Source: a virus
DNA: 49,869 nucleotides
Virus record (IMG/VR): IMGVR_UViG_3300030329_004896
Coordinates: 1 to 49,869 of that record
Direction: 5' to 3' (one strand)
Each line of letters starts with the position of its first letter. Position 1 is the first letter of the stretch. Shown here piece after piece: positions 10,701 to 28,250 of the stretch. Below the pieces are notes generated by a model. That model was not told the origin of the DNA and did no database searches. It worked only from the letters and a program-made list of their open reading frames with translations. The translations under genes and the position numbers were made by a program.

Positions 10701-10709
10701 GGGGATATT

Positions 10710-13700
10710 ATGGCATGTGATATAAATGATTTAAAAAGTATATTTGCAAAAAAGTTAAGAAACTTAAATCGCATATTTCAACGAAGGGAGTTATTAGACC
10801 CTGAAGATACCATGCGTTCAATTAGAGCTAGAATTATATCCAAAGATAATCCTGGATTGCTTGAATTATTTGATATAGTTTTAAGAGAGCAATTCCCTAA
10901 AGAATCTAAATCTATTTTAAATGATATGGAGATTAAGTACGAAAAGTTTCTTCCAAAAATGGCTCAAATTAGTATTATGCAGACTGGAGATGAGTTCTCT
11001 GAAATGCATAGTATAGCCAATACTGATCCAGATACAGTAGGTGATAGCACTATGGAAGATGGAGGTAATAGCACTGGAGATCTTCAGGGACATAATCAAT
11101 TTGATAAAAAGATCAGCGAGTTAGGTACTGGAGCATTTGATGATTTATTCAATAGATATACAGGTCTCGAGCATAGCAAAGAAGAAATGGTAGCAATCTA
11201 TGAAAAGATTAAAAGATTAGATTCTTTTGCAGATTTTGTAACATGGCTAGATGAAAAATATGATATAATCGGGCGTACTCAAGAGTTAGGAAAGAATTTA
11301 GATGCTAGACAGCGTGATTTATTAACATTTTATGTAATGCATAGACCTGTTAATGAGATAAAGAGAAATGAAAGATATGAATTGGTATATCTGAATATAG
11401 ACCCTACACATCTTATTAATGATTATTCTTCTGATATCCCTAAAGCTGTTGTCGAAGGCAAGGAAGGGAGGAAGGTTGCAATATTACAGAGTAGGCCTGC
11501 ATATGATTTACAGAATAAGTCAGATTTAAGTGCTTATGTTGCAAAAAACTTTATTGACGAAACTCCAGTCAAGATAAGAGGCAATGTTAAAGTAAGTAGA
11601 GCAACTGGATATTTTAATTTAAGTCAATCTGGAGAAGTTGTTGTTTATGGTGAGGATTATGCTAATGACGGTACAACAACAGATGCTAAATGGTACTTCA
11701 AGCCCTCTGGCACTAACTTTACCGAATGGGAATTAGGTAAATTAGAATATAATATTGCAACTATGAGAAGTACGAGTACTGGAAACAATATTCCATGGGT
11801 TCTTGTTGCGCCAACACCAGGAGATACTGGTACATTTTTTATGTCTAGGATATTAAACTCTCAAGCCAATGAAATGTTTTCAAAAGAAGAGGTAATAGAG
11901 GAATTATTAAGATTTGGATTTACTAGCTATGCAAATCAAGTGAGGGAAATACCTGATAATCAAACAATTTTAAATTGGTTTTTAGACAAGCAAAATATAT
12001 ATGAAGCTATATATAGAAAAGTAACAACCAAGCTTGATAATGGCAAAAATCAATACCAAGAAGAACAAGAAGCAGCAGGTAAAAATTGGGAGAAGAATTG
12101 GAATAATATTAAAAACAATTTTGAAAAAATCGAATTAATTATTCAAGGTATCGGGCTAAAAGCATTCGATAGATATTTAGGAGAGCAGGTAGATAAAGGA
12201 TTGATGACTCCAAAACAGCGTGAAATGCAAATGGAATCAGCTAATTCTATTGAAAATATGCCTAGATCTAAAAATTCAGATGGCGTACCTTATCATGTCG
12301 TTCCAGTCACGCATCATATAAGTGGTATGGTAGCTAGACATGAATGGTTACAAGCTGTAAGAGGCAATGATTATATGTTGCATTCTGATGGAAACTTTTT
12401 CCACCTTAGTACAAGATTGAAGATTAATAAATCAATGGGTATTGTCCCCGAAGGTATTGGTCCTGCTGATAGAATCGCATATGATGAAAGGAATCCTGAT
12501 TTAAAAATTATTCACACTGATAGAGAAGGAAATGAAACAGAAATTAATCAGTTGATAGATTTATATGATACTGGTGAATTAGATAATAAATGGGATGGCG
12601 CATCTTTTAATAGTACCGAAAGAATGGAAGAAATGGCTGATAGAGTAGGAGCGTCTCCCCTATTAGATGCAAATGGAGACCCTGTTCCAGGAGAATTTCA
12701 TCCAAAACAAATAAAGACTGTTGTCTCAGAAATGCAACTTGATGATGAAGGTAATTTTGTAGGATATATAGAGAAAAAACATGCTGTATTTGAAGTCAAG
12801 CCTGGATTAAAGTTTTACGATGGTGATAATTTAATGTTTGAAACTAGACTTGAGAACGGTAAGGTTAGAATATATTCTGGAACTAAACAGTATGATAGTA
12901 TTGGAGATTTAGATGCAATAAAAACTACAAGTGGAGAATTTAATTTTACAGGTAGAGAAGATCCATTTATGACATATGAAACTCAAGAAAATTCTGAAAG
13001 AATTATCATTACTCCTCACTATGGTTCCAATAGAACAGTTTATGGCTACGTATCCTATTTAAACTCGTTAAATTATAGTTTTGAGGAAGGTTCTAAAGAA
13101 GGGAAGGACTTTGCTGAATTTACAAAAGCATTAACAGATTTAGCTAAAAATCAATCGGGTATTTATGTAGATGCTTTGATTCAAGCGGATTTAGATCCTC
13201 GTGTTATGAGAGATTTATTGCAGCATATTTATGATACAGTTGGAGAAAGGCGTGATAGCTTTTCTGACAAATTAAGAAATACACTTGGTATGGGTATTCA
13301 TCATCCAGATTTTTCTACTCAAGCAAGACAGATGATTGTAAATTCTTTATTAGCTAAAGGTGCGATGCAAGGCAGAACCAGTACTGATAAAATAGGCAAA
13401 TATAATAAAGATGCTCTTTTTGGATCTACTTATATTATGGAACCTGATACTTTGGATGAGGTTAAAGATGATAAGCATGTGATATTGTCGTCAGATAATA
13501 AAGCTATTTACAATCAAATATTATTTAAGATTTTATTTTTGAATGGACGAAAGCATAATAAGATAAGCGATTCTGCTGCAAGAATAGTTGAAGACGTTAT
13601 ATACAACGAGATGAAACGTGCTGGGGAGCTTGATCATCTTAAAAACTATGAATTAGGGGCGAAGGAAGGTGAAAGCGTGATTGGTGGGGCTTTGATGATG

Positions 13701-15467
13701 GTCGATTTTGACAATAAAACTCACCAAAAAATATTAAATTCAGATGCAGTATTAGAGGCTTTAAATGAATTTTTAGAAAAGAATCCCCAGAAGGTTTTAA
13801 CATATCGTGCTCCAATACTTCATGCTAATGCTGTTCAAGTTAGAACTATCCAAAAATTTGTAAAAGGAGGAGCTAATGCTGTATATCATCATCCTATTGA
13901 TGTCTTTCTGAGATTAGTTGGAGACCACGATATAGATGAATCTGGTGTAATGTTGATACCCGCAAAATATGCAGAGAAGATTGAACCGTTTTATGAGACT
14001 AAATTCTTTGAGCGTATTTCAAGTTATAATGCTAATTATGATATGTTTGAAACTATTGACGGATATAATGTAGCTAATCTTAAAGATACTAAAGACGGTT
14101 GGTTAAATGTTGTACAGGGCATTGGAATACAGGGGATGGCTACTAATATGAAGAGTATTGCCTCTACATTATCAATGAGATTTGGTAAAATTACTTTCTC
14201 TGATGGAACAGTGGTTTCTCCTAAGAAATTAGATGATATGATCGTTATGGATTATGCTCCATTAAATAAAGACTTTGTTAAAGCATATAATAAAAATAAG
14301 AATTTATTGCCTGAAGGATCTACTATTGTTAAAAAAGGAAATGAATTTTATTTGAAAACTACTGTAGCTCATGAATATCTTATAGTTGTAAACGTTGCTA
14401 CTGATTACAGTAACAAGAAAACACAAGGTATGATTTTCAATAAATGGGGTATGACTGATGTGAGCTGGATGATAGATAGAACTTTTAAAGTAGAATCTGG
14501 TTCTTTAACTAAACAACATTATCAATTGTTACAAGACTTAAGAAATAAATATAATTATTCAAATACTAAGAAACTACGTACTCCTAATGCTAATAAAAAA
14601 ATGAATTTAGGATTAGCCCTACATCATTTAGAAAATTTATATGTTAGCTTAACAGCTCCATTGGAGATTCAAGCACGAGAAATTACAAAAATGATGCAAC
14701 TATATGTAGAAACTACTGGTACTGGAATTGAAAATGCAATACAATTAGGAGTGACTGATTTAGAAATGTATGAAGTTCTGACTCCAGAAGAAGAGATTAT
14801 ATTAAATACTCCTAGAACAATTTTCGAAGATTATGCGCAAGGTGAAGGCGGTATATATCCATTAATTTCACCTAAGAATAGATACGAAGTAACGCATCAT
14901 AGAGCTAAGCAAGTAATGAGAGAAAGTTATATAGATAAAAGAAAATATACAGAGGACGAATTATTAGAAGGTATCAGGATAGCTGAGGAATATTCAACAG
15001 AATTCTATGAAGTACCAGAAACTATGCAAACTATACAAAATAACCATACAGCTGATCCAGAAGATTCTGTAAAAGTAGATGATTTTGTAAAGCAAAAACG
15101 CCCTGAATGGAATGAAGAGATATTTAAACTAAATAATAAATGGTCTCAAGAAATTGAAGATGCTGTAGATAAGTATGGAGAAGGAGTAAGAGAAGTATTT
15201 ACTATATATATGATATCTGGTATCGATTTCAGACAAAATATTGCATATCTTCCTGTTTTAAAACATGGAAATAGGTTTATATTATCACCTAAGATACATA
15301 AAGAATATATGGAAATATGGGAGCAATTCTTTTTTGAAATGGATGCTACTGGTGAATCTACATGGAGAGAACATGAAGCTCATCTTAAAACCTATAGAGA
15401 TAGAAGAATACCTAATTTAGAGGCTATGAAAGATATTATTAATAAAAGAAATATAAAGGACTGTTAA
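10710..15467 (+). CDS. Single-chain two-barrel (DPBB) RNA polymerase, putative virion RNA polymerase
   Basis: The product has 1585 aa. Two signatures of the double-psi beta-barrel RNA polymerase superfamily appear in the expected order. Around W628-D629-G630-x-x-F633-x-S635 the sequence resembles the W-N-G-x-x-F-E-D-x-x-x-S segment of bacterial beta and the DG-x-x-x-x-S of RDR/QDE-1-type enzymes. It is followed by lysines in HPKQIKTVV (K666, K669). About 400 residues later comes R1033-A-P-I-L-H, then D1072-x-D1074-x-D1076 with a hydrophobic stretch ending in Pro, like R-A-P-T-L-H...D-F-D-G-D of beta'. Only the Gly of DFDGD differs (Ile). Lying among giant virion-type genes, it is probably packaged and ejected to transcribe early genes, as in crAss-like phages. 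The family call rests on motifs read by eye. Confidence 0.72.
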   Translation: MACDINDLKSIFAKKLRNLNRIFQRRELLDPEDTMRSIRARIISKDNPGLLELFDIVLREQFPKESKSILNDMEIKYEKFLPKMAQISIMQTGDEFSEMHSIANTDPDTVGDSTMEDGGNSTGDLQGHNQFDKKISELGTGAFDDLFNRYTGLEHSKEEMVAIYEKIKRLDSFADFVTWLDEKYDIIGRTQELGKNLDARQRDLLTFYVMHRPVNEIKRNERYELVYLNIDPTHLINDYSSDIPKAVVEGKEGRKVAILQSRPAYDLQNKSDLSAYVAKNFIDETPVKIRGNVKVSRATGYFNLSQSGEVVVYGEDYANDGTTTDAKWYFKPSGTNFTEWELGKLEYNIATMRSTSTGNNIPWVLVAPTPGDTGTFFMSRILNSQANEMFSKEEVIEELLRFGFTSYANQVREIPDNQTILNWFLDKQNIYEAIYRKVTTKLDNGKNQYQEEQEAAGKNWEKNWNNIKNNFEKIELIIQGIGLKAFDRYLGEQVDKGLMTPKQREMQMESANSIENMPRSKNSDGVPYHVVPVTHHISGMVARHEWLQAVRGNDYMLHSDGNFFHLSTRLKINKSMGIVPEGIGPADRIAYDERNPDLKIIHTDREGNETEINQLIDLYDTGELDNKWDGASFNSTERMEEMADRVGASPLLDANGDPVPGEFHPKQIKTVVSEMQLDDEGNFVGYIEKKHAVFEVKPGLKFYDGDNLMFETRLENGKVRIYSGTKQYDSIGDLDAIKTTSGEFNFTGREDPFMTYETQENSERIIITPHYGSNRTVYGYVSYLNSLNYSFEEGSKEGKDFAEFTKALTDLAKNQSGIYVDALIQADLDPRVMRDLLQHIYDTVGERRDSFSDKLRNTLGMGIHHPDFSTQARQMIVNSLLAKGAMQGRTSTDKIGKYNKDALFGSTYIMEPDTLDEVKDDKHVILSSDNKAIYNQILFKILFLNGRKHNKISDSAARIVEDVIYNEMKRAGELDHLKNYELGAKEGESVIGGALMMVDFDNKTHQKILNSDAVLEALNEFLEKNPQKVLTYRAPILHANAVQVRTIQKFVKGGANAVYHHPIDVFLRLVGDHDIDESGVMLIPAKYAEKIEPFYETKFFERISSYNANYDMFETIDGYNVANLKDTKDGWLNVVQGIGIQGMATNMKSIASTLSMRFGKITFSDGTVVSPKKLDDMIVMDYAPLNKDFVKAYNKNKNLLPEGSTIVKKGNEFYLKTTVAHEYLIVVNVATDYSNKKTQGMIFNKWGMTDVSWMIDRTFKVESGSLTKQHYQLLQDLRNKYNYSNTKKLRTPNANKKMNLGLALHHLENLYVSLTAPLEIQAREITKMMQLYVETTGTGIENAIQLGVTDLEMYEVLTPEEEIILNTPRTIFEDYAQGEGGIYPLISPKNRYEVTHHRAKQVMRESYIDKRKYTEDELLEGIRIAEEYSTEFYEVPETMQTIQNNHTADPEDSVKVDDFVKQKRPEWNEEIFKLNNKWSQEIEDAVDKYGEGVREVFTIYMISGIDFRQNIAYLPVLKHGNRFILSPKIHKEYMEIWEQFFFEMDATGESTWREHEAHLKTYRDRRIPNLEAMKDIINKRNIKDC

Positions 15468-18400
15468 ATGCCATGCAATTTAGATAAAGACTATTTAGAT
15501 TTTAATAATGCTATTTTGACTAAAAAAGAAGAGGTTATAAAAGCATATTGGGAAGTATTTAAAAATAGTTATGGACTGAATGATGAACAAGCTGGAGCTT
15601 TAGAAGAGAGTATCAATCAAATACAATTAAAAATACGTCGTCTGAAAAGAGCTATTAATAAAGGTACTGGTGGAAGAACAGTAGTATCAGAGAATAAAAA
15701 GAAATATGATAGTCTGCAACGACAATTGGTAGAGCTTGAAAAGAAATTTGCTGAATATGCCCCTAAAAGAAAGATTATTAAAAGAATAGAGAAGATGATT
15801 GTAAATCATGTTATGCATGTTCAGGAAAATGGATTATTTAAAGAGATGGTTGATCCTGTTACATTGATGAAAGTAATGAAAGATACTATGCAATTACCTA
15901 GGTCAATTATGTTTGATAAACTTTCAGATTTAGACAATAGCACTTTATTATCGATAGAAAGTCAAATGGCAAGCGAGCTTCATACATTGAAACAACTATC
16001 TGAGAAAGAAAGTAAATTAACATGGTATCAAGACCAAATAATGCATCCTTTAGCTATATCTAGAATGCTTGATCCAACAGGTAATTCTTATAAAGTAATT
16101 AAAAGCACTATTGATTTAGCTACTAATGCTTATTCATCGAGATCGCAATATGAAGTAGTCGTAAGCGAGGTCATGCAGAGTATTGCAACTTTAGTTGGTG
16201 GAGATAAGAATGGAGATTATCCTTTCATGTTTATGCATGATGTAGGAGATTTAAAACCAACAGAAGAAGATCAAGCTATTTCAATGGACAATATAGTAAA
16301 ATTCTTGCATGAGATAGGAGATAAAGAATTAGTTAAGCTAATACCACGACCTATAGTCGGATATAATGCTGCAGGAGAGCTCACTTACACTAAAGACTTT
16401 TTAACAAAGAGAGAACAGTCAGATGGTTCAATTAAGTCAGATTATACTCTTTGGAGAGAAGCTATACAAAGACAAATTGATAGTGGTTTAGAGGCAAGTG
16501 GTGATATACAAAAATATACACATAGAGTTGGAGATCAAGAAAGAACCTATTATTACTTAATGATTGAAAGAACCGATGAAGAAGGAAGAGTTTTTAATGT
16601 AGCATATGAAGTGCCTTTTGAAGAGTTTGAGACTAAAAGTGGTGATAAAGTCGATAGATTAACATTTCCTCCTAATAAAAAAAATGTAAAAAAATATCAA
16701 GAATGGTTCCAAAGAAATCCATCTGAACATTTAGGAGGAGTATTTAAATATGATGTTAAGACTGGGGAAGCAGTTTTAGAGCCTGGAAGAATGATACCAG
16801 GTTGGTATAGAGCGAGAGATTATAAAAACTTTACAGGACTTAAATCTGGTAAAAAGCAAAGAGAAAAAGGAGAGAAGTTTACGGGCCAAACATATATAGA
16901 TTATCAAATTGATGAAGATATGAATAATCAGGAAAGAAAATCTGGCTATGGGAAGAAATCTGTATTTGGCATGCCTGCAGAACTATTCGATTTACATCAT
17001 AAGCTGAATGAAATGTTCCAACAAGTAGCTCAAGATATTATAGAGAATAATAAAAAAATAGAAGCTAGGATGAAGATAGTTTTAAAGAATATTGTAGGTG
17101 GAGATGAAGAAAAGATTGACTTGCGAAAGATAAATATTAATGAACTTATAGCAGAAAAAATGAATGTCGATATTGATTTAATAAATATGAATATCAATGT
17201 AACTGGTAATACATTAAAAGACGCTAGGATATGGACAGTTAATAGTGAATTTAGCGAAAGAAGAAATTATATGCCTATAATATATTCTGATCCTGATAAA
17301 ATTAGCATGTTACTAAAATCAAGACAAAAAGCTATAAGTATGCGTGATAAAGTGCAGAAAGATTATGATAGAGTAAAAAATGAAGTAGCTACTGAAGAGA
17401 ATGTTAAAGAGAAGAATAAACTTAAAGATAGACTTAAAGAATTAAATACATTAGTAGTTCATGAAGATGCAACAGTAAAGCGTGTTTTAGGCATGTCTCC
17501 TAACGTACCTAAAGTTAATCAAATTACAGCTGTTAAAGCAGCTAAGCATCGTAGTAGCCAATCAAATCCTCTTGAGCAAACTACTGAAGTAACAGTAAAC
17601 GGAGAAACAACCACTGAAGTAACAAACCATGGAAGGCGAAAAGATTCTGGAGTATTCAGTGATTATCTTCAGCAGACATATATCTCAATGGAGCAAAATG
17701 AAGTTAAAATGCAATTACTAGAAGCTTTAGATAAAGGCATGAGTGAGACAATGAAGGAATATACTATTGATCAAGTAAAAGCATCATTTGGAAGAGATGA
17801 TGTTAAAGCAGGATTTCTGTTTTTAGATTACAGCGATGTTAAAATGATGCTGAATGAGACTGGCACATTGAATGACGTAGGTTATTTACTAGATGTGAAT
17901 AATAAATTATTAAGTGCCAACTTGTTAAAAAGCCCTGTTACTGCTTTAGTCAATAATTTTCAAAGAATAGGATATGGGATAGTTAGTGATATGGGTCTTG
18001 TTTTAGATGCAATGGAATGGAGGACTAATCCTGCTAATGCTAAAGAAGTAAGAGATGCCGCTGCTTTTGCAGGTATAACAGATGAGATTACTACAATAGC
18101 TGATGGATTGATTCCAGGAAACTTAAGCGCTGAAGGACAAGAACATTGGCTAAGTGGCTTTTGGAATAAGGCTATTATGGGTGCCTTAGTTCTATCTAGT
18201 AGTAGAAGTGACTTTATAAAGAAGACATTAAGGGGAAGTGGTATGGTTGCTACATTCTGGCAGAAAACAGCTGACTTCCTAGTATATCAAGATGTATCTA
18301 GGTTTGGAATAGATATAAAAAAACCTTTGAGTGAGCAACAACAACAATTATTTGAAGCAAGAGAAGAGGCTCTTTCTGATATGTGGCTGTTAACAAGAGG

Positions 18401-19370
18401 CTTGGCTATAGTAGATGAAGATACAGGGGAAGTTATTGATTTGATTCCTAAAGAAGAACGCCCTTATTTAGATAAAAAACTAGGTAGAACATTTGCAAAC
18501 AATATTATTAATAGTCATTTACAATTCTCGTTACAAGGAGGAGCTCTTATGCATTTATGGGGTGCTCGTCCTGGAATGCTAAAATTTACAGAATCAGAAA
18601 AAAATATGAGAATAGAATCTTTATATATTGCTGCTGAAGAATTGAAAAGAAAGGGGACAATAGATCCAGAATTGAAAGGTATAAACTTGTATAAGCATCC
18701 AAAAGTTGTTGCTCATGCAAGATTGCTAGTTAATAATGTAATGTTCTCTATGAGTACTGCAAATTTACCAAAAATGTTTAGAGGAAAAATAGGTAAAACA
18801 TTATTTAAATTTAAACCCTATATGTGGAATCAAATGGGAGCAGAATACAATATAATGCAATCATGGTGGTATAATGTTGCAAATGAAAATTTAAATATAG
18901 CAGATAGAATGAATGTGATTAAAGATACCTTGATAAATCCTAAAGGACCAGAGCAGAAACAAATGAGAAGTTTATTTGTGACAAGAGGATTGGCTACGGC
19001 AGTCACTACAACTGGTACTCATATGATATTTGGAGCTAAGTTTGCAAGGACAATCATGAGGAGAATGTTTGGCTATGCAGGTGTTAATGTAGCAACCAGA
19101 GGTGCTGATTTTCAGATTATGAAAGTATTAATGAATGCGTTTTTGACTGGGCTTATGTTTTCAGGAGCTTGGGGAGATGAAGATGAGAAGGTATATCAGG
19201 AATTTAGGAGGAACTTCTATCCTATATTTGTAAATATCATATTAGATACCTGGCGTGGAGAAGATCCATGGAGAGGAGTAAGAGTATATTCTACTGGTTT
19301 ATATAATATGATAGATATGATTAGAGAATTTAAAAACAGTCAAAAGGTAGCAACAAGAGGAATGTATTAA
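15468..19370 (+). CDS. Giant virion-type protein (1300 aa) with hydrophobic C-terminus
   Basis: The gene starts immediately after the stop of the RNA polymerase-like gene, behind an SD (AAAGGA), so the two are translated together. Residues ~1-110 are coiled-coil-like, ~180-560 mixed alpha/beta, and ~620-680 strongly charged helical. The last ~450 residues are helical with hydrophobic segments, for example TRGLATAVTTTGTHMIFGA and a stretch near 1220-1240 rich in Leu, Phe and Met. Aromatic, basic patches such as FKFKPYMWNQMG occur between them. This suits a large internal virion protein that enters the host membrane. It is the last gene of the rightward block and ends 2 bases before a convergent minus-strand gene. 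Function inferred. Confidence 0.5.
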   Translation: MPCNLDKDYLDFNNAILTKKEEVIKAYWEVFKNSYGLNDEQAGALEESINQIQLKIRRLKRAINKGTGGRTVVSENKKKYDSLQRQLVELEKKFAEYAPKRKIIKRIEKMIVNHVMHVQENGLFKEMVDPVTLMKVMKDTMQLPRSIMFDKLSDLDNSTLLSIESQMASELHTLKQLSEKESKLTWYQDQIMHPLAISRMLDPTGNSYKVIKSTIDLATNAYSSRSQYEVVVSEVMQSIATLVGGDKNGDYPFMFMHDVGDLKPTEEDQAISMDNIVKFLHEIGDKELVKLIPRPIVGYNAAGELTYTKDFLTKREQSDGSIKSDYTLWREAIQRQIDSGLEASGDIQKYTHRVGDQERTYYYLMIERTDEEGRVFNVAYEVPFEEFETKSGDKVDRLTFPPNKKNVKKYQEWFQRNPSEHLGGVFKYDVKTGEAVLEPGRMIPGWYRARDYKNFTGLKSGKKQREKGEKFTGQTYIDYQIDEDMNNQERKSGYGKKSVFGMPAELFDLHHKLNEMFQQVAQDIIENNKKIEARMKIVLKNIVGGDEEKIDLRKININELIAEKMNVDIDLINMNINVTGNTLKDARIWTVNSEFSERRNYMPIIYSDPDKISMLLKSRQKAISMRDKVQKDYDRVKNEVATEENVKEKNKLKDRLKELNTLVVHEDATVKRVLGMSPNVPKVNQITAVKAAKHRSSQSNPLEQTTEVTVNGETTTEVTNHGRRKDSGVFSDYLQQTYISMEQNEVKMQLLEALDKGMSETMKEYTIDQVKASFGRDDVKAGFLFLDYSDVKMMLNETGTLNDVGYLLDVNNKLLSANLLKSPVTALVNNFQRIGYGIVSDMGLVLDAMEWRTNPANAKEVRDAAAFAGITDEITTIADGLIPGNLSAEGQEHWLSGFWNKAIMGALVLSSSRSDFIKKTLRGSGMVATFWQKTADFLVYQDVSRFGIDIKKPLSEQQQQLFEAREEALSDMWLLTRGLAIVDEDTGEVIDLIPKEERPYLDKKLGRTFANNIINSHLQFSLQGGALMHLWGARPGMLKFTESEKNMRIESLYIAAEELKRKGTIDPELKGINLYKHPKVVAHARLLVNNVMFSMSTANLPKMFRGKIGKTLFKFKPYMWNQMGAEYNIMQSWWYNVANENLNIADRMNVIKDTLINPKGPEQKQMRSLFVTRGLATAVTTTGTHMIFGAKFARTIMRRMFGYAGVNVATRGADFQIMKVLMNAFLTGLMFSGAWGDEDEKVYQEFRRNFYPIFVNIILDTWRGEDPWRGVRVYSTGLYNMIDMIREFKNSQKVATRGMY

Positions 19371-20921: not shown

Positions 20922-21301
20922 AATAAGCTTTCGGTTTTACCATTTGCAAATTTCTTTTGATAACTTGATATAATTGGCTCTTTTATAGCATCTAACTCTC
21001 TTTGCCCATCAATCATCGCCCATAACAAGAAAAGATAAACAATCGCATCTTTTATCCTTCCAGATACATCTTCTCTTTGAGATTCATGTCCCTCAATATA
21101 TGAGCTTATTCCATCAATATGCTTTAAAAGATAAACCATTAAAGCTTTTTCACTAGGAATTTTAAGACAATCAGCTACTCTATCGAAATTTGCAAAAACA
21201 TTATCTTCTGCTCGAGCATATTCTTTTTGTCCATCATCCCTTGTTTCTTTAACTTGATTTAGCATATAGTCAAAATATGCATTAAAATGCGTTCTTTTCA
21301 T
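20918..21301 (-). CDS. Nucleotide-modification-associated (DUF1599-like) domain protein
   Basis: The product has 127 aa. The arrangement YARAEDNVFANFDRVADCL, then LLKHIDGISSYIEG, then IKDAIVYLFLLWAMID, is like the all-helical nucleotide-modification-associated family seen in phages, where NF, KH and a conserved D-x-x-x-Y-L recur. Members often lie near DNA replication or base-modification genes; the precise activity is unknown. Here it lies directly downstream of the primase-helicase with a 20-base overlap. The family assignment is by motif memory and moderately sure. Confidence 0.5.
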   Translation of the reverse strand: MKRTHFNAYFDYMLNQVKETRDDGQKEYARAEDNVFANFDRVADCLKIPSEKALMVYLLKHIDGISSYIEGHESQREDVSGRIKDAIVYLFLLWAMIDGQRELDAIKEPIISSYQKKFANGKTESLL

Positions 21302-23036
21302 AATATATCCTTGTATTATCTACTTTTAAGTTAACATTCATTGTTTCACGCTCTCTATTAGCTTCACATTTAACATTTATAGCTTCTATTTCACCAGTAG
21401 ATATACTTTTTAATGGCTTAACAGATAATAGTTTATTAGTATTATATGCGACTCTAAATGAGCCTTTAGCGGACGCAACATTCATACCTTCATGGAAGGC
21501 TTGCTTAGTAATTTCAGAGACAGTAAACACTATTATATTGTGTTTAACAGCTATTTCCATTAAAGCTTGTGACGCTTCTTCTATCTTCATATTAGGATCT
21601 CTATGTTTAGATTTAAATAAGCCCATATGATCAACAACTAATATTTCAGGTTTCATAGATAACATAGATAGTTTTTTATCTATTTCATGAGCATAAGGAG
21701 TAGAATAATCTACAGTTAGCCACTCAAATCGTTTATCTATACCATTTTTAGATTGCATATAGTGCTTTTTAAGGTCATTTTCATCCCATTGCATTTCCAT
21801 TTGAACAAATCTAGTCCATATTTGTCTTGGAGACATTTCCATTTCTATAAAAAATGTAGGTTTTTTAAATCCGTTCATCCAGTTTTGCAATAACATAGTT
21901 TTCATGCTCTTTGGTGGAGCTTGTAGAATCACAACTTCACCTGGATATATAGGAAAATTACAATCTTCATATATTTCACTGAAATTAATACCTTTTTGGT
22001 CTGAATTTAAGAAATTGATTAGATTCATTTCCATATCAGCAGAAGACATTAATGTTTGATTCTTCTTAGATTTATATAATTTACAAGTATTTTTACAATA
22101 TTCGTCCATTACAGGATCTTGACAACCATATCTATATCCTTGTCCATCATGACCATCATAGCAGCTATTAACTATACTCTCCATTTCTTCTTCTTTAAAT
22201 CTAGAAGTAGCATTATCAACCTGTTCTCTCCAATTTTCCATTATCAATCTTACTGTATCTTCTGGATATAGCCATCTCAACCAAGCTGCAAGTCTTAATG
22301 CAACTGTATGTCTTCTACCTACAGGATTTGATTGTAACATCCCACTTATACACGGATAATTAACAGGGTCAGGATTTCTGCCTTTAGATATAAATTTAGG
22401 AGCTTCTTCTTTTTTTATATTTTTAGTTTTTGATAAGATATCAAATACTGGATTACATTCCAACAATGTATCGTTCAGTTCTCTTGGAAATTTAGCATAT
22501 TCTTTTAATTTATCTATATCATTTAACATATCTTCACGAATTTGTACTTTATATAGATTAGATTTACTATTCTTTGTATTAGGCACTCTTATCAATCTAA
22601 CTTTGTCAGTAACAGAAGGATCTGCATAATCGAATATACCAGCATTAGTTAAGGCATGTTTTACTTTTATATGCAAATTAGGTGAAGGTTTCCATCTAAA
22701 TGCTTCTGAAGGTATATGTAAATGAAATCCAGTACCACTAAAGAATAATTTAAATGGTACATCTAAGTCGTTTAATAATATAATTAAGCCTTTTGTTTTA
22801 TTGATAGCAGATTCTATAGCTTCTCCATCTACATCTAATATAAATTCATCAGGCATATATATATTACCTTTATATCCAGATAGTTTTTTTGTTTGACTGA
22901 AATGTGTTTTAATATCATCATCATATTCATATAAAGACATAAAAGTATCACTATCCATATTCATAAATTCGCTAACATCATTTGCATCTCTGAAATAATG
23001 TCTATTGGCTAGTCCTAGAGCAAATTCTTTTATCAT
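21282..23036 (-). CDS. Primase-helicase: archaeo-eukaryotic-type primase domain plus RecA-like helicase
   Basis: The product has 584 aa. The N-terminal primase domain shows D68-x-D70 (EFILDVDG), the S-G-x-G-F-H-x-H motif (100-107) and a basic motif III (RLIRVPNTKNSKS, ~147-159). A PriCT-like linker follows (~229-290), with a cysteine group (C292, C305, C314, C318) that may hold zinc or an Fe-S cluster. The C-terminal ATPase has Walker A APPKSMKT (373-380) and Walker B ILVVDH with D468. It would make primers and unwind the fork. The SD AAAGGAA lies just upstream. No DNA polymerase is found in the window, so the host enzyme is presumably used. Confidence 0.85.
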   Translation of the reverse strand: MIKEFALGLANRHYFRDANDVSEFMNMDSDTFMSLYEYDDDIKTHFSQTKKLSGYKGNIYMPDEFILDVDGEAIESAINKTKGLIILLNDLDVPFKLFFSGTGFHLHIPSEAFRWKPSPNLHIKVKHALTNAGIFDYADPSVTDKVRLIRVPNTKNSKSNLYKVQIREDMLNDIDKLKEYAKFPRELNDTLLECNPVFDILSKTKNIKKEEAPKFISKGRNPDPVNYPCISGMLQSNPVGRRHTVALRLAAWLRWLYPEDTVRLIMENWREQVDNATSRFKEEEMESIVNSCYDGHDGQGYRYGCQDPVMDEYCKNTCKLYKSKKNQTLMSSADMEMNLINFLNSDQKGINFSEIYEDCNFPIYPGEVVILQAPPKSMKTMLLQNWMNGFKKPTFFIEMEMSPRQIWTRFVQMEMQWDENDLKKHYMQSKNGIDKRFEWLTVDYSTPYAHEIDKKLSMLSMKPEILVVDHMGLFKSKHRDPNMKIEEASQALMEIAVKHNIIVFTVSEITKQAFHEGMNVASAKGSFRVAYNTNKLLSVKPLKSISTGEIEAINVKCEANRERETMNVNLKVDNTRIYYEKNAF

Positions 23037-23121: not shown

Positions 23122-23673
23122 TTAGAATGGCATATCAGCCACTTTATTAAGTTCGTTTACATCAACTTCTTCAATAACTTCATCGATAGAAAGTTTTGGC
23201 TTAACATATTTATCAAAATATTGCAAAGCTTTACCTTTCCAGAAATCTACATCTTTATCTGTAAACTCTTCTACTACATTCTTAAATGGCACAGGTGCAA
23301 TTTCTTTCAAAACTCGTGAATATTCCCCATCTTTATATAGAAAGATATTGACATCTTTACCTATTAAATGATCGGGACTATCATCCATTTTAATAATCAT
23401 ATTTCCTTCACCATCATCAAGAGCGTCAGTGATACCAGCATTAGCAAACCTAAATAGCTTACCAATTGCAAACTCTTCTCCGTTTTGATTCTCTTTAGCA
23501 TATACTCTCAGGTTCATTTTATCTGAATATCCATCAAAATATACATCTATATATTTAACAGGACCATCACTACCATCCCATTCTCCATATTCAGCATTAC
23601 TTATATTAACAGTATGCCAACCTTCACTGTATGGACTAGGTCCACCTTTTTTGATTGTGAGTGTTCTACCCAT
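23122..23673 (-). CDS. Single-stranded DNA-binding-like protein with acidic MPF tail
   Basis: The product has 183 aa. Residues ~1-120 look beta-rich (alternating hydrophobic strands, WHTVNISNAEYG...YIDVYFDGY), as in OB-fold phage proteins. The end is acidic and finishes ADMPF, like the D-x-P-F tail with which SSBs recruit partners. It sits between the ERF annealing protein and the primase-helicase, sharing one base with the ERF stop region, which fits a role coating single-stranded DNA. The OB fold itself is inferred. Confidence 0.62.
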   Translation of the reverse strand: MGRTLTIKKGGPSPYSEGWHTVNISNAEYGEWDGSDGPVKYIDVYFDGYSDKMNLRVYAKENQNGEEFAIGKLFRFANAGITDALDDGEGNMIIKMDDSPDHLIGKDVNIFLYKDGEYSRVLKEIAPVPFKNVVEEFTDKDVDFWKGKALQYFDKYVKPKLSIDEVIEEVDVNELNKVADMPF

Positions 23674-24149
23674 TATTTACTCCTTTTATTAACTGTTGCA
23701 TTACCATCATCATCCACTTGAGCTAAGCCTACCATTGCAGCTAAACCATATCTTCTACCATATGTGCATGCAGAACCTATTTCTTGTGCATCTTTTTTAT
23801 TTGTCAGAGGTATTCTTATCTTGCTTTTAAGCCACTGACCTGACTTATGTATTAACATAGTAGTTATAAAATATCCTTCTACTCTGTCAAATTCATTTCC
23901 TTGAGTAATAGCTAATCCATTACTGCTTAAAGCAGGTATTGCAGCCTCCAAACAATCATTTATATCTGCATATTTGCTTTTATAAAAAGGATTAGTACTG
24001 GTTTTCTTTACTCCGCCCATTTCTCCTTGAGCCTTAGCTAATGCTTCGGCTAACTTATCTATTTTATTGGACTTCCAATCATCTATAGATATATATTCAG
24101 GGGACAGAATATCTTCTTCAACAGGTTGTTGAACTTCATTTTCGGACAT
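23673..24149 (-). CDS. erf: ERF-family single-strand annealing recombinase
   Basis: The product has 158 aa and carries the hallmarks of the ERF family: LAEALAKAQGEM, then NPFYKSKYADINDCL, LSSNGLAITQ, a strand with HKSGQWL, and GSACTYGRRYGLAAMVGL followed by DDDGN. These proteins form rings that anneal complementary single strands in phage recombination and genome circularisation. The gene is followed immediately by the SSB-like gene, and its SD (AAGGAG) precedes the ATG at 24149. The protein ends soon after the DDDGN motif, so it has the core only, without a long C-terminal tail. Confidence 0.93.
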   Translation of the reverse strand: MSENEVQQPVEEDILSPEYISIDDWKSNKIDKLAEALAKAQGEMGGVKKTSTNPFYKSKYADINDCLEAAIPALSSNGLAITQGNEFDRVEGYFITTMLIHKSGQWLKSKIRIPLTNKKDAQEIGSACTYGRRYGLAAMVGLAQVDDDGNATVNKRSK

Positions 24150-24176: not shown

Positions 24177-24851
24177 TTACGAAATCATTGACGACTTTTG
24201 CAATAACATTGTTGGGAAATTAAAGGAAAATTTCTCATTATATGGTTGCTCCATCACGACTTTTCTTACAGCGTTTGCTATAAAACTTCCACTCATATTT
24301 GAACAATAACTTGTAGCTTTTGCATTACAAGGTTCTTCGCTACCAGACTCATCTGTATACCAATATTTCTTATATCTAGATATTGTAGGTTTGCTTATAA
24401 TATATTGTTGATAATGCTCTGCTCCCATTCTACCGTCTATAATGCATTTAGGTTGATACTCCTTAGGAATTATTTTGCTACATATTATATTAACGGCTTC
24501 TAATCTAGCTTCCATGCTATCGAATCCTAATATAATAATATCTCTATAGTCTCCAGTCGGAGCATATTGTTTGAATCTTTCATTATTTGTATTTATTAAT
24601 GCAGAAGGAGAAATATCAATAAGACGATCTTCTAAAGCATTAACTTTATATTCACCTATATCATTTTGAGTGTATTCAGAAACTCCTATATTTGCTTCTT
24701 CAACTATGTCGAAATCATAGAGATTGAATTTTTCTCCTCCCATTCTACATAATTGGACGGCTGCAGAGCTTCCAATAGCTCCGCAACCAAGTATATGATA
24801 TACATATTGATTCATTTTATTTACTATACCTTCTGATCTTTGATTAATCAT
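24177..24851 (-). CDS. E1/ThiF-like activating enzyme for the ubiquitin-like protein
   Basis: The 224-aa product is a Rossmann-type adenylating enzyme. It has the nucleotide loop G22-x-G24-x-x-G27 in YHILGCGAIGSS, an acidic strand YDFDIVEEANIG, a D-I-G-x-x-K motif (NDIGEYKVNAL), and IIDGRMG, matching the order in ThiF/MoeB/E1 proteins. Two cysteines, C175 and C183 (EEPCNAKATSYCSNMSG), lie where the E1 catalytic Cys is expected. Paired CxxC zinc sites of ThiF/MoeB are absent, and the protein is short. It follows the JAB gene by 3 bases and would activate the GG end of the 69-aa protein and pass it to the E2-like protein. Confidence 0.82.
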   Translation of the reverse strand: MINQRSEGIVNKMNQYVYHILGCGAIGSSAAVQLCRMGGEKFNLYDFDIVEEANIGVSEYTQNDIGEYKVNALEDRLIDISPSALINTNNERFKQYAPTGDYRDIIILGFDSMEARLEAVNIICSKIIPKEYQPKCIIDGRMGAEHYQQYIISKPTISRYKKYWYTDESGSEEPCNAKATSYCSNMSGSFIANAVRKVVMEQPYNEKFSFNFPTMLLQKSSMIS

Positions 24852-24854
24852 TGT

Positions 24855-25733
24855 TTATATCCCCCATCTTGAATGATACCCGAGTGTATCATCTGTATCT
24901 ATTATATGATTAGAAGGAGTGCTTGTCATCAAGGAATCTTCCCAAGATTTCATATCTAACCTTCCTATCAATACTCCTGTGTCTTGTTCTGTAGCTTTAT
25001 CATTAAACTCTTTAATAGCATCTACATAATCTTTATATTTAACTGTTCCTGCACATGCTCCGTTGATTAAGTTTTGCATTAATTGATAAGCCTTAGTATA
25101 ATCATATATTTCAGGCTCATCTTCAATTAAAGAGTCTAAGTCTATAGGCTGTCTCCATATAGTTGTTTGATTTTTCATGTTCTTTATTTTATTATAATTC
25201 CATCGAGGCATTGTCGTAGTTGGAGCTGGTTTACTACATAATTCATTAACTTCATTAACCAATTTTTTAGGAAATTTCTTTTCATTTTCCATTATACAAA
25301 TTTCGACATCTTTATGTATTTCAAATGGTTTCCACACTGACACTCTGAATTTATATTCTTCTTTTAGATTTACTACTAATGCAAAGCTAAAATCACCTTC
25401 ATTAAATTCGTCTATTGTATCGGTATCTGTTCCAGACCAGAATGCACCCATAGTATGGTGACTATGCCACCAGCAGAACCTGAAGTTCTTATTTTTATAT
25501 TTCTTAGCAGCATTAGTATAATATATAGCTAATTCATCTTTGTCTAAATGAGTATTAGTAGCTGTAATTACTTGCTTGAGTATAACAGGGTCTTTTATCT
25601 CCCAATCTCCTTCCTTATCTTCAACTACTACAGACATTCCTCCTATTTCTGCTTTAAACTCATCATAAGCTATACCTGCATAATTGATTATTTTATTCCA
25701 ATTGCTTTTACTTATATAAAAATCATTATCCAT
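24855..25733 (-). CDS. JAB/JAMM metalloprotease, putative processor or remover of the ubiquitin-like protein
   Basis: The zinc motif is complete: E29 (KAEIGG), then H90-S-H92-x7-S100-x-x-D103 in WWHSHHTMGAFWSGTD. This is the canonical JAMM pattern of Ubl isopeptidases. The ~150 residues after it are helical and of unknown role. The start at 25733 (MDNDFYISK) is chosen because AAAGGA lies 6 bases upstream; two in-frame ATGs at 25748 and 25739 have worse spacing. The gene overlaps the E2-like gene by 8 bases and precedes the E1 gene by 3. It would cut the final two residues off the 69-aa protein to expose GG, or remove it from targets. Confidence 0.88.
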   Translation of the reverse strand: MDNDFYISKSNWNKIINYAGIAYDEFKAEIGGMSVVVEDKEGDWEIKDPVILKQVITATNTHLDKDELAIYYTNAAKKYKNKNFRFCWWHSHHTMGAFWSGTDTDTIDEFNEGDFSFALVVNLKEEYKFRVSVWKPFEIHKDVEICIMENEKKFPKKLVNEVNELCSKPAPTTTMPRWNYNKIKNMKNQTTIWRQPIDLDSLIEDEPEIYDYTKAYQLMQNLINGACAGTVKYKDYVDAIKEFNDKATEQDTGVLIGRLDMKSWEDSLMTSTPSNHIIDTDDTLGYHSRWGI

Positions 25734-27246
25734 TTTCATTCCTTTCATTATTTGCTATGTTAAGAGCTCCACCTTGTTGTGCAGCCCATATTATCATTCT
25801 TTCTTCTACTGATACTTCTTCACCATCATCAGTCAAACCAAGGTCTCTATTGATTCTATTAGCTTCTTCTATAATAGATTCTTCATGATTAGGATGTATT
25901 TCCCTAATTGCTTCCGCTGTTTCTGGAAAACGATCTGCTTGAGTCATTATATTCTCTGGATTCCATTGTGCATCTTCTATTATATCTTCAGGAGAATCAG
26001 CAACAGCTTTATCTGGATCATAATTGTAATAACTGCATTCTGATCTATTAAGACATTCATAGTCATCACAGTATGTTTTAGGACCACTAATAGATTTACT
26101 TTTTATTTGGCAATCATTAACTGTAGTAGGTATTACATTTTGAAATTCCTTTGTATCCATTCCTTTATGCATACCAAAGAACATGGTTTTAGGAGAATTC
26201 ATTGGATGAGTAGATGTAGCATTAAATACAGTATGCCAATTATAAAAATAAGCATATATCTCTCCCAATGCCAATTTGCTTAAACTATTTGATATATTAC
26301 GTTGAAAATTACCAAGACAAGCATAAGCCATTTTATATTTCTCCGTAAAGTCCTCTCCATCTGCTACAATTTCAAAACTTTGATTACTTCTATAAAATTC
26401 GTCATTAGATATATATGGATGTAATAATTGATTCCATCCATTCATATCCTCACCATCAACTTCGTTAATATATTCTCTATGATAAGCAGCTTGCCATTGA
26501 TTAAGATGTGGCATATAACCTCCATATCTTATATAAGAAGAATTATTATCTATGATATTTTGAGATTTGTCTTCTAACCAATCCATATTTCCGCTTACCC
26601 TACATAAGAAATCATCTAGATCCATAGCATATATTAGGGTAGTTTCATATATAGGAATAGAATAAGGAGTTTCACCTATATAATAATTGCATGTGGTAGT
26701 TGGCAAAGAATACTTGAATACTATGCATTTTTTATCTATCTCTTCATGATCAGTCCTCCATACTTCATTGAATTCAAATTTATAATGTCCAATATATACA
26801 TTGAAATAATCTTTTTTGCCTTCTAGCTCTTCATTGAATTTTGCCATAAGAGCATCCCATACTTTTTGTATTATATCAGTATTATTTTGAAAAACTGCTT
26901 TTCTTCTTCTCATATTAAGCATTTTATTGTCAATTGTATTAAGCCTGTCTCTAAAATTGTTATACATCCAAATTTTGCCGTCAATTTGATTGAAATAGGT
27001 TGATATTTTACGTTTCATATGAGGTTCTAGATGTTTAGTGGCCATATATTCTTTTATTTGATCCATATATCCAGATTTCCATCTGTAAGTCTTTGTTATT
27101 CCTAGACTTAAACCATACATACTGTTGATGTCTTCAATTCTTTGAAGAACATCTTTTTGAGGCCCCATTATCAATCTTTCTCCTAATTCAGCAATATTGG
27201 GTGTCCAATTTGTTAATTCGTCTGTTATGATTAATGTTTCTTGCAT
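25726..27246 (-). CDS. E2-like (UBC-fold) protein with long N-terminal extension
   Basis: The product has 506 aa if translation starts at 27246 (MQETLIITD), with GGGAGAGAA just upstream; an ATG 24 bases earlier is poorer. The region ~150-345 resembles bacterial E2-like proteins. A strand-rich start (YIGHYKFEFNEVWR) is followed by H276-P277-Y-I-S, then C310-L-G-N in YACLGNF, then a helix and FYNWHTVFN. HP...CLG is the E2 signature, with C310 as candidate catalytic Cys; the H-to-C gap of 34 residues is longer than in eukaryotic E2s. A Cys-rich patch (CDDYECLNRSEC) and an acidic tail follow. Placement directly before JAB and E1 genes supports the call. The fold is inferred. Confidence 0.65.
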   Translation of the reverse strand: MQETLIITDELTNWTPNIAELGERLIMGPQKDVLQRIEDINSMYGLSLGITKTYRWKSGYMDQIKEYMATKHLEPHMKRKISTYFNQIDGKIWMYNNFRDRLNTIDNKMLNMRRRKAVFQNNTDIIQKVWDALMAKFNEELEGKKDYFNVYIGHYKFEFNEVWRTDHEEIDKKCIVFKYSLPTTTCNYYIGETPYSIPIYETTLIYAMDLDDFLCRVSGNMDWLEDKSQNIIDNNSSYIRYGGYMPHLNQWQAAYHREYINEVDGEDMNGWNQLLHPYISNDEFYRSNQSFEIVADGEDFTEKYKMAYACLGNFQRNISNSLSKLALGEIYAYFYNWHTVFNATSTHPMNSPKTMFFGMHKGMDTKEFQNVIPTTVNDCQIKSKSISGPKTYCDDYECLNRSECSYYNYDPDKAVADSPEDIIEDAQWNPENIMTQADRFPETAEAIREIHPNHEESIIEEANRINRDLGLTDDGEEVSVEERMIIWAAQQGGALNIANNERNENG

Positions 27247-27421
27247 TTCTCTCCCTTTCGCATGATGCACATATTTGCCGATCTAATTTATATGAAGATA
27301 ATTCTTTATATTTGTATATTGTAGAACGTCTATTGCTTAAACAATAAAAAGATTCCCATACATATTGGCATTTAGTGCAATATTTTAGTTTAAAGTGTCC
27401 ATGATTTACTTTTTTCTTCAT
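27188..27421 (-). CDS. Small zinc-ribbon-like protein preceding the E2-like gene
   Basis: The product has 77 aa, with two knuckles, YCTKC (C15-x-x-C18) and ICASCE about 35 residues later, giving a four-Cys zinc ribbon or treble-clef-like arrangement. The rest is basic. Its 3' end overlaps the E2-like gene by 59 bases, so the two are translationally linked. An adaptor or E3-like role is conceivable because of its position, but nothing in the sequence proves it. Confidence 0.55.
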   Translation of the reverse strand: MKKKVNHGHFKLKYCTKCQYVWESFYCLSNRRSTIYKYKELSSYKLDRQICASCERERNARNINHNRRINKLDTQYC

Positions 27422-27429
27422 ATTTAGCC

Positions 27430-27951
27430 TTAACTGATGATAAATCCGCCAGATTCTTCACAAAATTTGGCAAATTTTATTATATTTTCTTTATTGAATG
27501 GATAATTTCCCATAAAAGACTGTTCTTTATCATCAGATTCAGCTATATTTTTACGATATTCTTCATAAGCGCTTGAATATTGATCTACAGTTTTATCTAG
27601 TAATAAAGTATTAAGTTTTACAGATATTTTAACTGCTTTATCAGCACTGATTTCATGATGATCGTTAAAACATCCGCTTTTTATATCTTCTCTAGTTAAT
27701 ATATCATCACAATGCGTGCAAACGAACTCCCATAAAGGTCTCCAAAACCATACACTGTTACGAAAATATATACCTGGATTATCTTCTTGTCTTTGCTCCC
27801 ATTGATCCCAATAAGCTTCTTTTTCGCCATTTTTTTCCATATCTTTCTGCCTTGTATCATAACATTCATAGTTATCCCAGCTATATTTATCTAATAGTGG
27901 ATAATCTGTTTTATGCATTTTAGGATTAACTCCTGATATATCGAAACCCAT
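27430..27951 (-). CDS. Conserved phage protein of unknown function (FRNSVWFWRPLW motif)
   Basis: The product has 173 aa and opens MGFDISGVNPK. Its centre is GIYFRNSVWFWRPLWEFVC, and it ends FAKFCEESGGFIIS. These three landmarks recur in a family of small phage proteins of unknown function found in replication modules of environmental phages. One CxxC (CTHC) follows the Trp-rich motif. It lies 8 bases upstream of the zinc-ribbon gene and behind an SD (AAAGGAG). The family resemblance is from memory. Confidence 0.65.
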   Translation of the reverse strand: MGFDISGVNPKMHKTDYPLLDKYSWDNYECYDTRQKDMEKNGEKEAYWDQWEQRQEDNPGIYFRNSVWFWRPLWEFVCTHCDDILTREDIKSGCFNDHHEISADKAVKISVKLNTLLLDKTVDQYSSAYEEYRKNIAESDDKEQSFMGNYPFNKENIIKFAKFCEESGGFIIS

Positions 27952-27984
27952 GTCTCTCTCCTTTTATATTAATTGTTAGTTGCA

Positions 27985-28008
27985 AGGGGCTGAAATTAAT
28001 CAACCCCT
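27985..28008 (-). promoter_or_regulatory. Leader hairpin in the gap after the ubiquitin-like gene
   Basis: AGGGG (27985-27989) pairs with CCCCT (28004-28008), and an inner TGA/TCA pair closes around AATTAA. The hairpin lies in the 89-base gap between the 69-aa Ubl gene and the 173-aa gene. It resembles the other GC-rich hairpins of the leftward operon and has no T-run. Confidence 0.4.
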
Positions 28009-28040
28009 CGCTCTGTACTGTATTCAACCCGTGGTCAGGC

Positions 28041-28250
28041 TTATACTATACCGCCAGTTTTGTCATTATGTACTGCGGCAACCATATCTCCATCTGATAG
28101 AGCATGTCCATCGCGCACATTTTGACCATTCACTGAAATAACAGCTCCCGCTGCTATATTTAGTTCAGTTCTTAAATCACCAACTGTCTCCGAAGATACT
28201 GATTGATCTACGAATCCACCACCTGATAATAGTTTTATATTTGCGGCCAT
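28041..28250 (-). CDS. Ubiquitin-like beta-grasp protein with GG-IV C-terminus
   Basis: The product has 69 aa. After a first strand (NIKLLSGGGF) and a helix with TVGDLRTELN, the segment AVISVNGQNVRDGHALSDGDMVAAV has the V-N-G...L-x-D-G-D-x-V pattern of ThiS/MoaD/Ubl beta-grasp proteins. It ends KTGGIV, so a di-glycine (G66-G67) is capped by two residues that a protease must remove. The JAMM, E1-like and E2-like genes lie downstream in the same operon, completing a conjugation set. A plain sulphur carrier is less likely because ThiS/MoaD end in GG and no thiamine or molybdopterin genes are present. Confidence 0.85.
   Translation of the reverse strand: MAANIKLLSGGGFVDQSVSSETVGDLRTELNIAAGAVISVNGQNVRDGHALSDGDMVAAVHNDKTGGIV

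Follow-up and report, generated by a model that had tools for sequence, protein, structure and literature searches.

A Probable Virus-Encoded Ubiquitin-Like Conjugation Cassette Adjoining Phage Replication and Recombination Genes

Introduction

In prokaryotes, conjugation of ubiquitin-like proteins (Ubls) is known chiefly from plasmid cassettes and from operons that serve bacterial defence. In the plasmid-borne PRTRC cassettes, the B protein has been described as E2-like; PRTRC probably corresponds to operon type 6d in Iyer et al. 2006. In the bacterial Bil system, BilA has two Ubl domains, BilB carries a CEHH motif (Cys, with Glu at +6 and His at +8 and +13), and BilD combines an inactive and an active adenylation domain with a Cys domain (PMC11354881). 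The survey of Iyer et al. described bacterial operons and a Ubl–JAB pair of the lambda tail, and no viral set of E1, E2, JAB and Ubl (PMC1779556). Here, we analysed the IMG/VR virus record IMGVR_UViG_3300030329_004896, the entire 49,869 bases of which are referred to as the window, and describe four minus-strand genes for a Ubl, an E2-like protein, a JAMM (JAB) metalloprotease and a ThiF-type E1. We consider it probable that they form a self-contained, virus-encoded cassette for Ubl conjugation and deconjugation, tied to the replication and recombination operon of the phage.

Results

Layout and Conservation of the Cassette

The four-gene set had been proposed in an original prediction made from the letters of the window. 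Its coordinates, strand and content all proved correct, and each open reading frame (ORF) was as described:

28041..28250, minus strand: precursor of the Ubl modifier (69 aa, beta-grasp), with K64-T-G66-G67 and then the tail IV; Pfam ThiS 1.3e-4, Foldseek ThiS/ubiquitin
25729..27246, minus strand: E2-like (E2-slot) protein of 506 aa, with Cys310 as the predicted active residue; no family match
24855..25748, minus strand: JAMM (JAB) metalloprotease, 297 aa, E34/H95/H97/S105/D108
24177..24851, minus strand: E1-like adenylating enzyme of the ThiF family, 224 aa, with one adenylation domain and Cys175 (or Cys183) as the candidate thioester residue

The E2-like and JAB genes overlap by 20 nt, and JAB and E1 are separated by 3 nt.

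Single-sequence scans of IMG/VR returned no relatives for the E2 query and one for the E1 query; profile scans then returned hundreds (254 E1 and 166 JAB relatives), and 80 of each were taken further. The resulting sample consisted of the window and 150 related loci. These include overlapping pieces of the same contig, and 109 have distinct E1 sequences. (Related loci are labelled with L-numbers, such as L001 and L030.) Iterative profiles detected the Ubl in 94, E1 in 147, JAB in 150 and the E2-slot protein in 121. The order Ubl–E2–JAB–E1 was found in 89 of the 90 loci holding all four genes, with zero to two ORFs between Ubl and E2; in the sole exception, L101, the Ubl is placed between E2 and JAB. 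Nearly all loci without Ubl or E2 end at a contig edge close to the missing gene, and L139, seemingly Ubl-less despite 8 kb of upstream sequence, was found to encode a divergent Ubl ending NNKVGG. In L112, the end of E2 is set apart from JAB by an inserted gene. A radical S-adenosylmethionine-like gene with a CxxxCxYCY motif sits between E2 and JAB in both L112 (223–1092) and L123 (3–722).

The ratio of nonsynonymous to synonymous substitutions (dN/dS) was about 0.08–0.5 in the sampled pairs (0.08–0.49). Together with the recurrence of the same order in 89 loci, this places the cassette far beyond chance. Profiles of E1 and JAB found no copy in 84,980 prokaryote genomes, in a search that relies on exact matches of short peptides and would overlook remote homologues; our best reading is that the cassette is restricted to viruses.

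The Ubl, the JAMM Protease and the E1

Three of the proteins had been assigned as a beta-grasp Ubl ending in GG-IV, a complete JAMM protease and an E1/ThiF-like enzyme, and all three assignments were borne out. The C-terminus of the Ubl reads ...NDKTGGIV, and its match to Pfam ThiS (E = 1.3e-4) exceeds the curated cut-off. An AlphaFold model built from a 43-sequence alignment had a predicted local distance difference test (pLDDT) score of 83.6 and a clear beta-grasp fold. In a Foldseek search with this model, the first-ranked match was the archaeal ThiS-like protein Mth1743 (E = 3.3e-4, template modelling (TM) score 0.75), followed by the ubiquitin of C. subterraneum (8.5e-4); numerous chains of ubiquitin, SUMO and MoaD ranked lower down. 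The Ubl is a single 69-aa domain. Gly66-Gly67 is kept in all 71 distinct Ubls and Lys64 in 70 of them. Beyond GG there are no residues in 16 Ubls, one to four in 39 and 5–103 in 15; one more Ubl, that of L001, ends in GGQ. Since most precursors (55 of 71) extend 1–103 residues beyond GlyGly, they would need trimming, and these tails have no conserved sequence. Such a combination, an unvarying GG with a disposable tail behind it, is the signature of a processed modifier.

The protease has the full JAMM motif (E34, H95-S-H97, S105 and D108, in the pattern E...HxH-x7-S-x2-D), every residue of which is invariant across 111–112 distinct JAB relatives. The match to Pfam Prok-JAB (1e-3) was under the cut-off and that to PADLOC JAB was 1.1e-4; the best PDB relative was the Caldiarchaeum (archaeal) Rpn11 homologue (6.3e-5). 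Outside the JAMM site, Cys171 is invariant as well (114 of 114), and the C-terminal extension of JAB is variable.

The E1 matches Pfam ThiF (1.5e-18) and contains a GCGAIG motif. In profile comparisons with the PDB, UBA5 (3.5e-11) and MccB come nearest to it, with ThiF and MoeB ranking behind, and it locally resembles the E1–E2 proteins of the cyclic oligonucleotide-based antiphage signalling system (CBASS). Cys175 and Cys183 are both kept in 110 of 110 distinct sequences. We prefer Cys175 as the most likely thioester residue, because the segment PC175NAKATSYC183 presumably corresponds to the part of UBA5 that holds the catalytic Cys.

The E2-Slot Protein

The 506-aa protein contains HPYIS (276–280) and, later in the sequence, C310-L-G. 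Across 98 distinct sequences, Pro277 and Cys310 are each kept in 97; Trp337, Pro348 and Cys398 are also conserved, Cys398 being near-invariant like Cys310. The motif HP...CLGN, by which the protein had been predicted to be E2-like, thus held up in its Pro and Cys, but the His position is H, F or Y (62/29/7) and the Gly position G, D or S (71/18/9). This protein is the fastest-diverging of the four, with 15–34% identity to its relatives. It had no match in Pfam, PHROG or the other family libraries scanned, nor to UBC by sequence. A Pfam/NCBIfam scan of 47 E2-slot proteins gave scattered chance matches only, and a search of annotated phages with the E2-slot protein gave no relative.

The AlphaFold model of the protein had a pLDDT of 76.7 and was poor at residues 249–300. 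From the N- to the C-terminus, it has a helical N-terminal region (18–141), a beta-meander (148–209), the HP motif, Cys310 and a pair of helices, an order of motifs and secondary structure that is compatible with a UBC domain. Against a viral structure library, Foldseek gave six strong matches, followed by A0A1B0WLX5 (420 aa, probability 0.99), A0A8S5TL76 and A0A7M1RZ27, the last of which is a 435-aa protein of the crAss-like phage cr128_1. The E2-slot gene of cr128_1 (L171, 2285–3592) encodes 435 aa and that of Flavobacterium phage FpV4 encodes 420 aa. Since length and organism agree, A0A1B0WLX5 and A0A7M1RZ27 are probably the FpV4 and cr128_1 E2-slot proteins themselves. With hhalign, the E2 core aligned to PRTRC_B (E = 0.022) and to the crAss slot protein (E = 0.069) on the same Cys-x-Gly, and both matches beat 30 of 30 control families (0.2 or worse). 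Full-length hhalign gave nothing usable, and the crAss E2-slot profile matched PRTRC_B no better than controls did.

A Related Set in crAss-Like and Flavobacterium Phages

A search of annotated phages with the E1 gave matches in crAss-like and Flavobacterium phages. In phiCrAss001, gp79-gp78-gp77-gp76 have the same order of Ubl, E2 slot, JAB and E1, and the block is flanked by the DNA primase gp80 and, two genes beyond, by the uracil-DNA glycosylase gp74. By profile, gp77 matches JAB (7.8e-8) and gp76 matches E1 (4e-31); gp79 has an N-terminal Ubl-like domain ending KKIKSG, followed by about 135 aa more, and gp78 contains HSH...CTG. The block is also present in Kolpuevirus, cr128_1, DAC15, Dulem virus 41, bajarodcaudo virus 1 and FpV4 (ALN97166–ALN97163). 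The crAss and Flavobacterium proteins matched the cassette profiles at 1.8e-26 or better for E1 and 1.2e-6 or better for JAB, and the crAss Ubl profile matched that of the marine Ubls with E = 0.001, narrowly beating 30 of 30 controls (best control 0.0036). Unlike the marine Ubls, those of the crAss-like and Flavobacterium phages end in KxxSG and carry an extension of about 100–200 aa. Their E2-slot proteins have 388–444 aa with HSH...CxG, and their E1 often has an N-terminal extension and forms its own group in the E1 tree. The genes of the block are currently annotated as hypothetical, hypothetical, metalloprotease or hypothetical, and ThiF/thiamine biosynthesis. The label of thiamine biosynthesis is probably wrong (L154, which is phiCrAss001 75502–88035, as well as L152, L153, L155, L171, L172 and L174).

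In cr106_1 (L173, 671–1874), a gene for an HNH endonuclease lies inside the Ubl gene, just past KKIKSG, at the predicted processing point. The first ORF encodes a free 92-aa Ubl with the C-terminus KIKSGKF, and the extension has an ORF of its own. This split is a natural demonstration that the Ubl ends at that point.

Replication and Recombination Genes around the Cassette

In the order of transcription, the minus strand of the window encodes the Ubl, two small ORFs, the E2-like protein, JAB, ThiF/E1, Erf, a 183-aa protein and a primase-helicase, with a gap of 27 nt between E1 and Erf. The features surrounding the four core genes are:

27188..27951, minus strand: two small ORFs in the Ubl–E2 interval (27951–27430, 173 aa; 27421–27188, 77 aa)
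23673..24149, minus strand: Erf-type single-strand annealing protein, adjoining E1; Pfam ERF 4.9e-24, PHROG 2.6e-39
23122..23673, minus strand: 183-aa conserved protein of the same operon; family in 67 of the 109 distinct loci, at a distance of about 1.3 kb past the E1 start
21282..23036, minus strand: primase-helicase; Pfam DnaB_C 6.2e-8, PHROG primase 2.1e-23

A phage replication operon had been suggested as the setting of the set, and this was upheld by the related loci: a gene of the primase-helicase family lies downstream of E1 in 100 of the 109 distinct loci. The gene directly after E1 encodes Erf in 40 of them and an AAA_24 ATPase in 35 + 28. The ATPase that alternates with Erf is Sak4-like, and the Ubl cassette next to it is unchanged. 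Since the cassette is kept while the recombinase is swapped, its link is probably to the whole replication/recombination module and not to one partner. Genes of replication and recombination adjoin the cassette in marine phages, crAss-like phages and Flavobacterium phages. The two small ORFs had no family match; the family of the 173-aa ORF was found in 18 of the 109 distinct loci, and these ORFs do not belong to the cassette in all loci.

The window itself belongs to a tailed phage, with genes for an SU10-type capsid protein, a large terminase and a portal. The best identity of its terminase was about 26% among the matches listed, with no close cultured relative found, and comparison with known phages at the DNA level gave no similarity. 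Three giant ORFs (1634, 1585 and 1300 aa) without a Pfam match occupy positions 5796–19370 of the plus strand, more than one quarter of the genome.

Discussion

Proposed Conjugation Cycle and Its Alternatives

Judging from the anatomy of the Ubl precursors, the JAMM protease would cut off the variable tail and expose ...K-x-Gly-Gly. By homology, the ThiF-type E1 would then use ATP to adenylate the Gly carboxylate and form a thioester, most likely on Cys175. Next, the 506-aa E2-like protein would receive the Ubl on its Cys310 and would join it to target lysines; the additional helical region of this protein may select substrates in place of a separate E3. Because the gene neighbourhood is fixed, the targets would most likely be proteins that act on phage DNA; candidates are the primase-helicase, the annealing protein and the host replisome. 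The original prediction had suggested that host or phage proteins may be tagged to favour infection or block defence. The JAMM protease may subsequently take the tag off again. Maturation and activation would follow from well-identified enzyme families and conjugation through Cys310 is likely, while targets in replication and recombination are what we infer from the neighbourhood.

This cycle is supported by the nearest relatives of two of its enzymes, since the E1 is closest to UBA5, which feeds an E2, and JAB is closest to an Rpn11 homologue. The kept order of the four genes, the invariant catalytic residues, the unconserved Ubl tails, the split Ubl gene of cr106_1, the beta-grasp fold, the like order in PRTRC and the adjoining replication and recombination genes also speak for it. 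The weak link is the assignment of the E2, and several observations count against the proposal. Foldseek found no UBC match in the PDB for the AlphaFold model of the E2-slot protein; the model is of low confidence directly ahead of the predicted active Cys; the two profile matches of the E2 core are each non-significant alone; and neither an E3 nor a target is visible. In addition, L030 has JAB and E1 straight after structural genes with no E2 upstream, and is the only locus with enough sequence in which an E2-slot protein is lacking; it may be a true exception or an assembly join of contig ends. The original identification as an E2 is backed by the invariant Cys, a fixed place in the gene order and weak similarities of profile and fold, but not by a PDB match to UBC.

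The main rivals are a non-E2 role of the Cys310 protein and a role of the Ubl as a sulfur carrier. We consider it unlikely that the activated Ubl goes to another acceptor, be it a small molecule or the 506-aa protein, in which case the reading as a four-component ubiquitin system would fail in its third part. Such a role would fit the missing UBC match in the PDB, the rapid divergence of the protein and the lack of a family match among 47 members, but the protein occupies the same slot as PRTRC_B, the weak colinear profile match falls on the same Cys and beats all 30 controls, and the order of motifs and secondary structure are compatible with UBC. A sulfur pathway, in which E1 and Ubl make a Ubl-thiocarboxylate and the Cys310 protein thiolates a nucleotide, tRNA or DNA base for the phage, seems quite improbable to us. 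The models would be ThiS/MoaD, or carriers of the QbsE/CysO type that are trimmed by a JAB protease. The best Pfam and Foldseek matches of the Ubl are indeed ThiS and a ThiS-like protein, sets of ThiF, ThiS-like and JAB proteins are known from sulfur pathways (PMC1779556), and both Cys310 and Cys398 are near-invariant. However, none of the scanned window ORFs and conserved neighbours was recognised as a rhodanese, desulfurase, phosphoadenosine phosphosulfate (PAPS) reductase or base-modifying enzyme, although the host could supply these; the E1 profile is closer to UBA5 than to ThiF or MoeB; the E2-slot protein is obligatory, as in conjugation operons; and most of the Ubls are tailed, whereas carriers of the ThiS/MoaD type have GG at the extreme C-terminus.

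We give least credence to counter-defence, in which the cassette, or JAMM and Ubl, would interfere with host Ubl immunity (Bil, Bub or CBASS type II), for example by stripping tags from virion proteins or by competing for host enzymes. Bil tags phage tail fibres (PMC12948488), a deconjugating protease would benefit a phage, and the local resemblance of the E1 to CBASS E1–E2 proteins points the same way. A deconjugase alone would do for this purpose, yet E1, E2 and Ubl are all retained with invariant catalytic residues. Moreover, the cassette has its fixed place within a replication operon, not in a variable anti-defence region, and is conserved over very different phages.

Returning to the conjugation cycle, we would put forward only tentatively the wider proposal that lytic phages, including Crassvirales, run a full Ubl cycle of their own on replication and recombination proteins, with the E2-slot protein as a divergent E2 with a built-in substrate-choosing region. 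If true, this would be the viral equivalent of the ubiquitylation or SUMOylation of PCNA, and a virus-restricted cassette in a replication operon would mean that phages use Ubl tagging for their own life cycle. The idea is testable in the laboratory, because the related set is present, unrecognised, in cultured crAss-like gut phages. This provides a small number of enzymes, predicted to act in conjugation and deconjugation, for reconstitution, a phage–host pair (phiCrAss001 and Bacteroides intestinalis), and an extra lineage for the open question of the origin of cascades of E1, E2 and deubiquitinase (DUB).

Comparison with Known Systems

The tail proteins TAPI (Ubl) and TAPK (JAB) of lambda and T1 are likewise a Ubl and a JAB domain encoded together by a phage (PMC1779556), but they occur without E1 or E2 and their role is in tail assembly, not replication. 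No description of a phage-encoded Ubl conjugation set was found in a literature search that did not cover subscription journals or preprints. CBASS type II (Cap2/Cap3) and Bub share a ThiF-type E1 and a JAMM protease with the cassette. However, Cap2 fuses E1 and E2 and has a CD-NTase partner, whereas the phage E1 is a separate 224-aa protein and no CD-NTase was found among the scanned neighbours; on these grounds, membership in CBASS type II was rejected.

The original prediction had likened the set to Bil and PRTRC, which was sound with respect to gene order but not to the defining features of either system. Like Bil, the cassette has four components (Ubl, E2, JAMM DUB and E1) and a Ubl that requires JAB processing (PMC11354881). 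Bil is a bacterial defence system, whereas this set is viral, and we rejected membership in Bil on the number of Ubl domains, the E2 motif and the E1 architecture: the phage Ubl is a single 69-aa domain and not two in tandem as in BilA; Cys310 is followed by Arg316, Ile318 and Ser323 and not by the CEHH residues; and the 224-aa phage E1 has one ThiF domain, whereas BilD has two plus a Cys domain.

The plasmid order of PRTRC is ParB-E-C-F-B-A-ThiF, in which C (Ubl)...B (E2)-A (JAB)-ThiF (E1) matches the phage order, and in the E2 slot both have Cys-x-Gly and then a segment resembling (T/N)-H/N-P-x-N. The phage proteins, however, scored far under the PRTRC model cut-offs (ThiF 31.4 against 144.75 bits, A 14.5 against 101.8, B no match), PRTRC_C ends in TKG and has no profile similarity to the phage Ubl, and PRTRC has ParB, E and F proteins, none of which was seen in the phage set. 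No ParB-related protein was found among the scanned neighbours, in a scan that did not take in every small ORF. Membership in PRTRC was rejected on the scores and on ParB. A PRTRC-like B-A-ThiF set is present in the cultured Burkholderia phage BgVeeders33 (L169, 2243–5780), a second phage lineage with E2, JAB and E1. In E1 trees, the marine, crAss and PRTRC proteins form three groups, with PRTRC on a long branch (bootstrap not fully settled). The cassette is a new, virus-specific variant of the prokaryotic Ubl systems.

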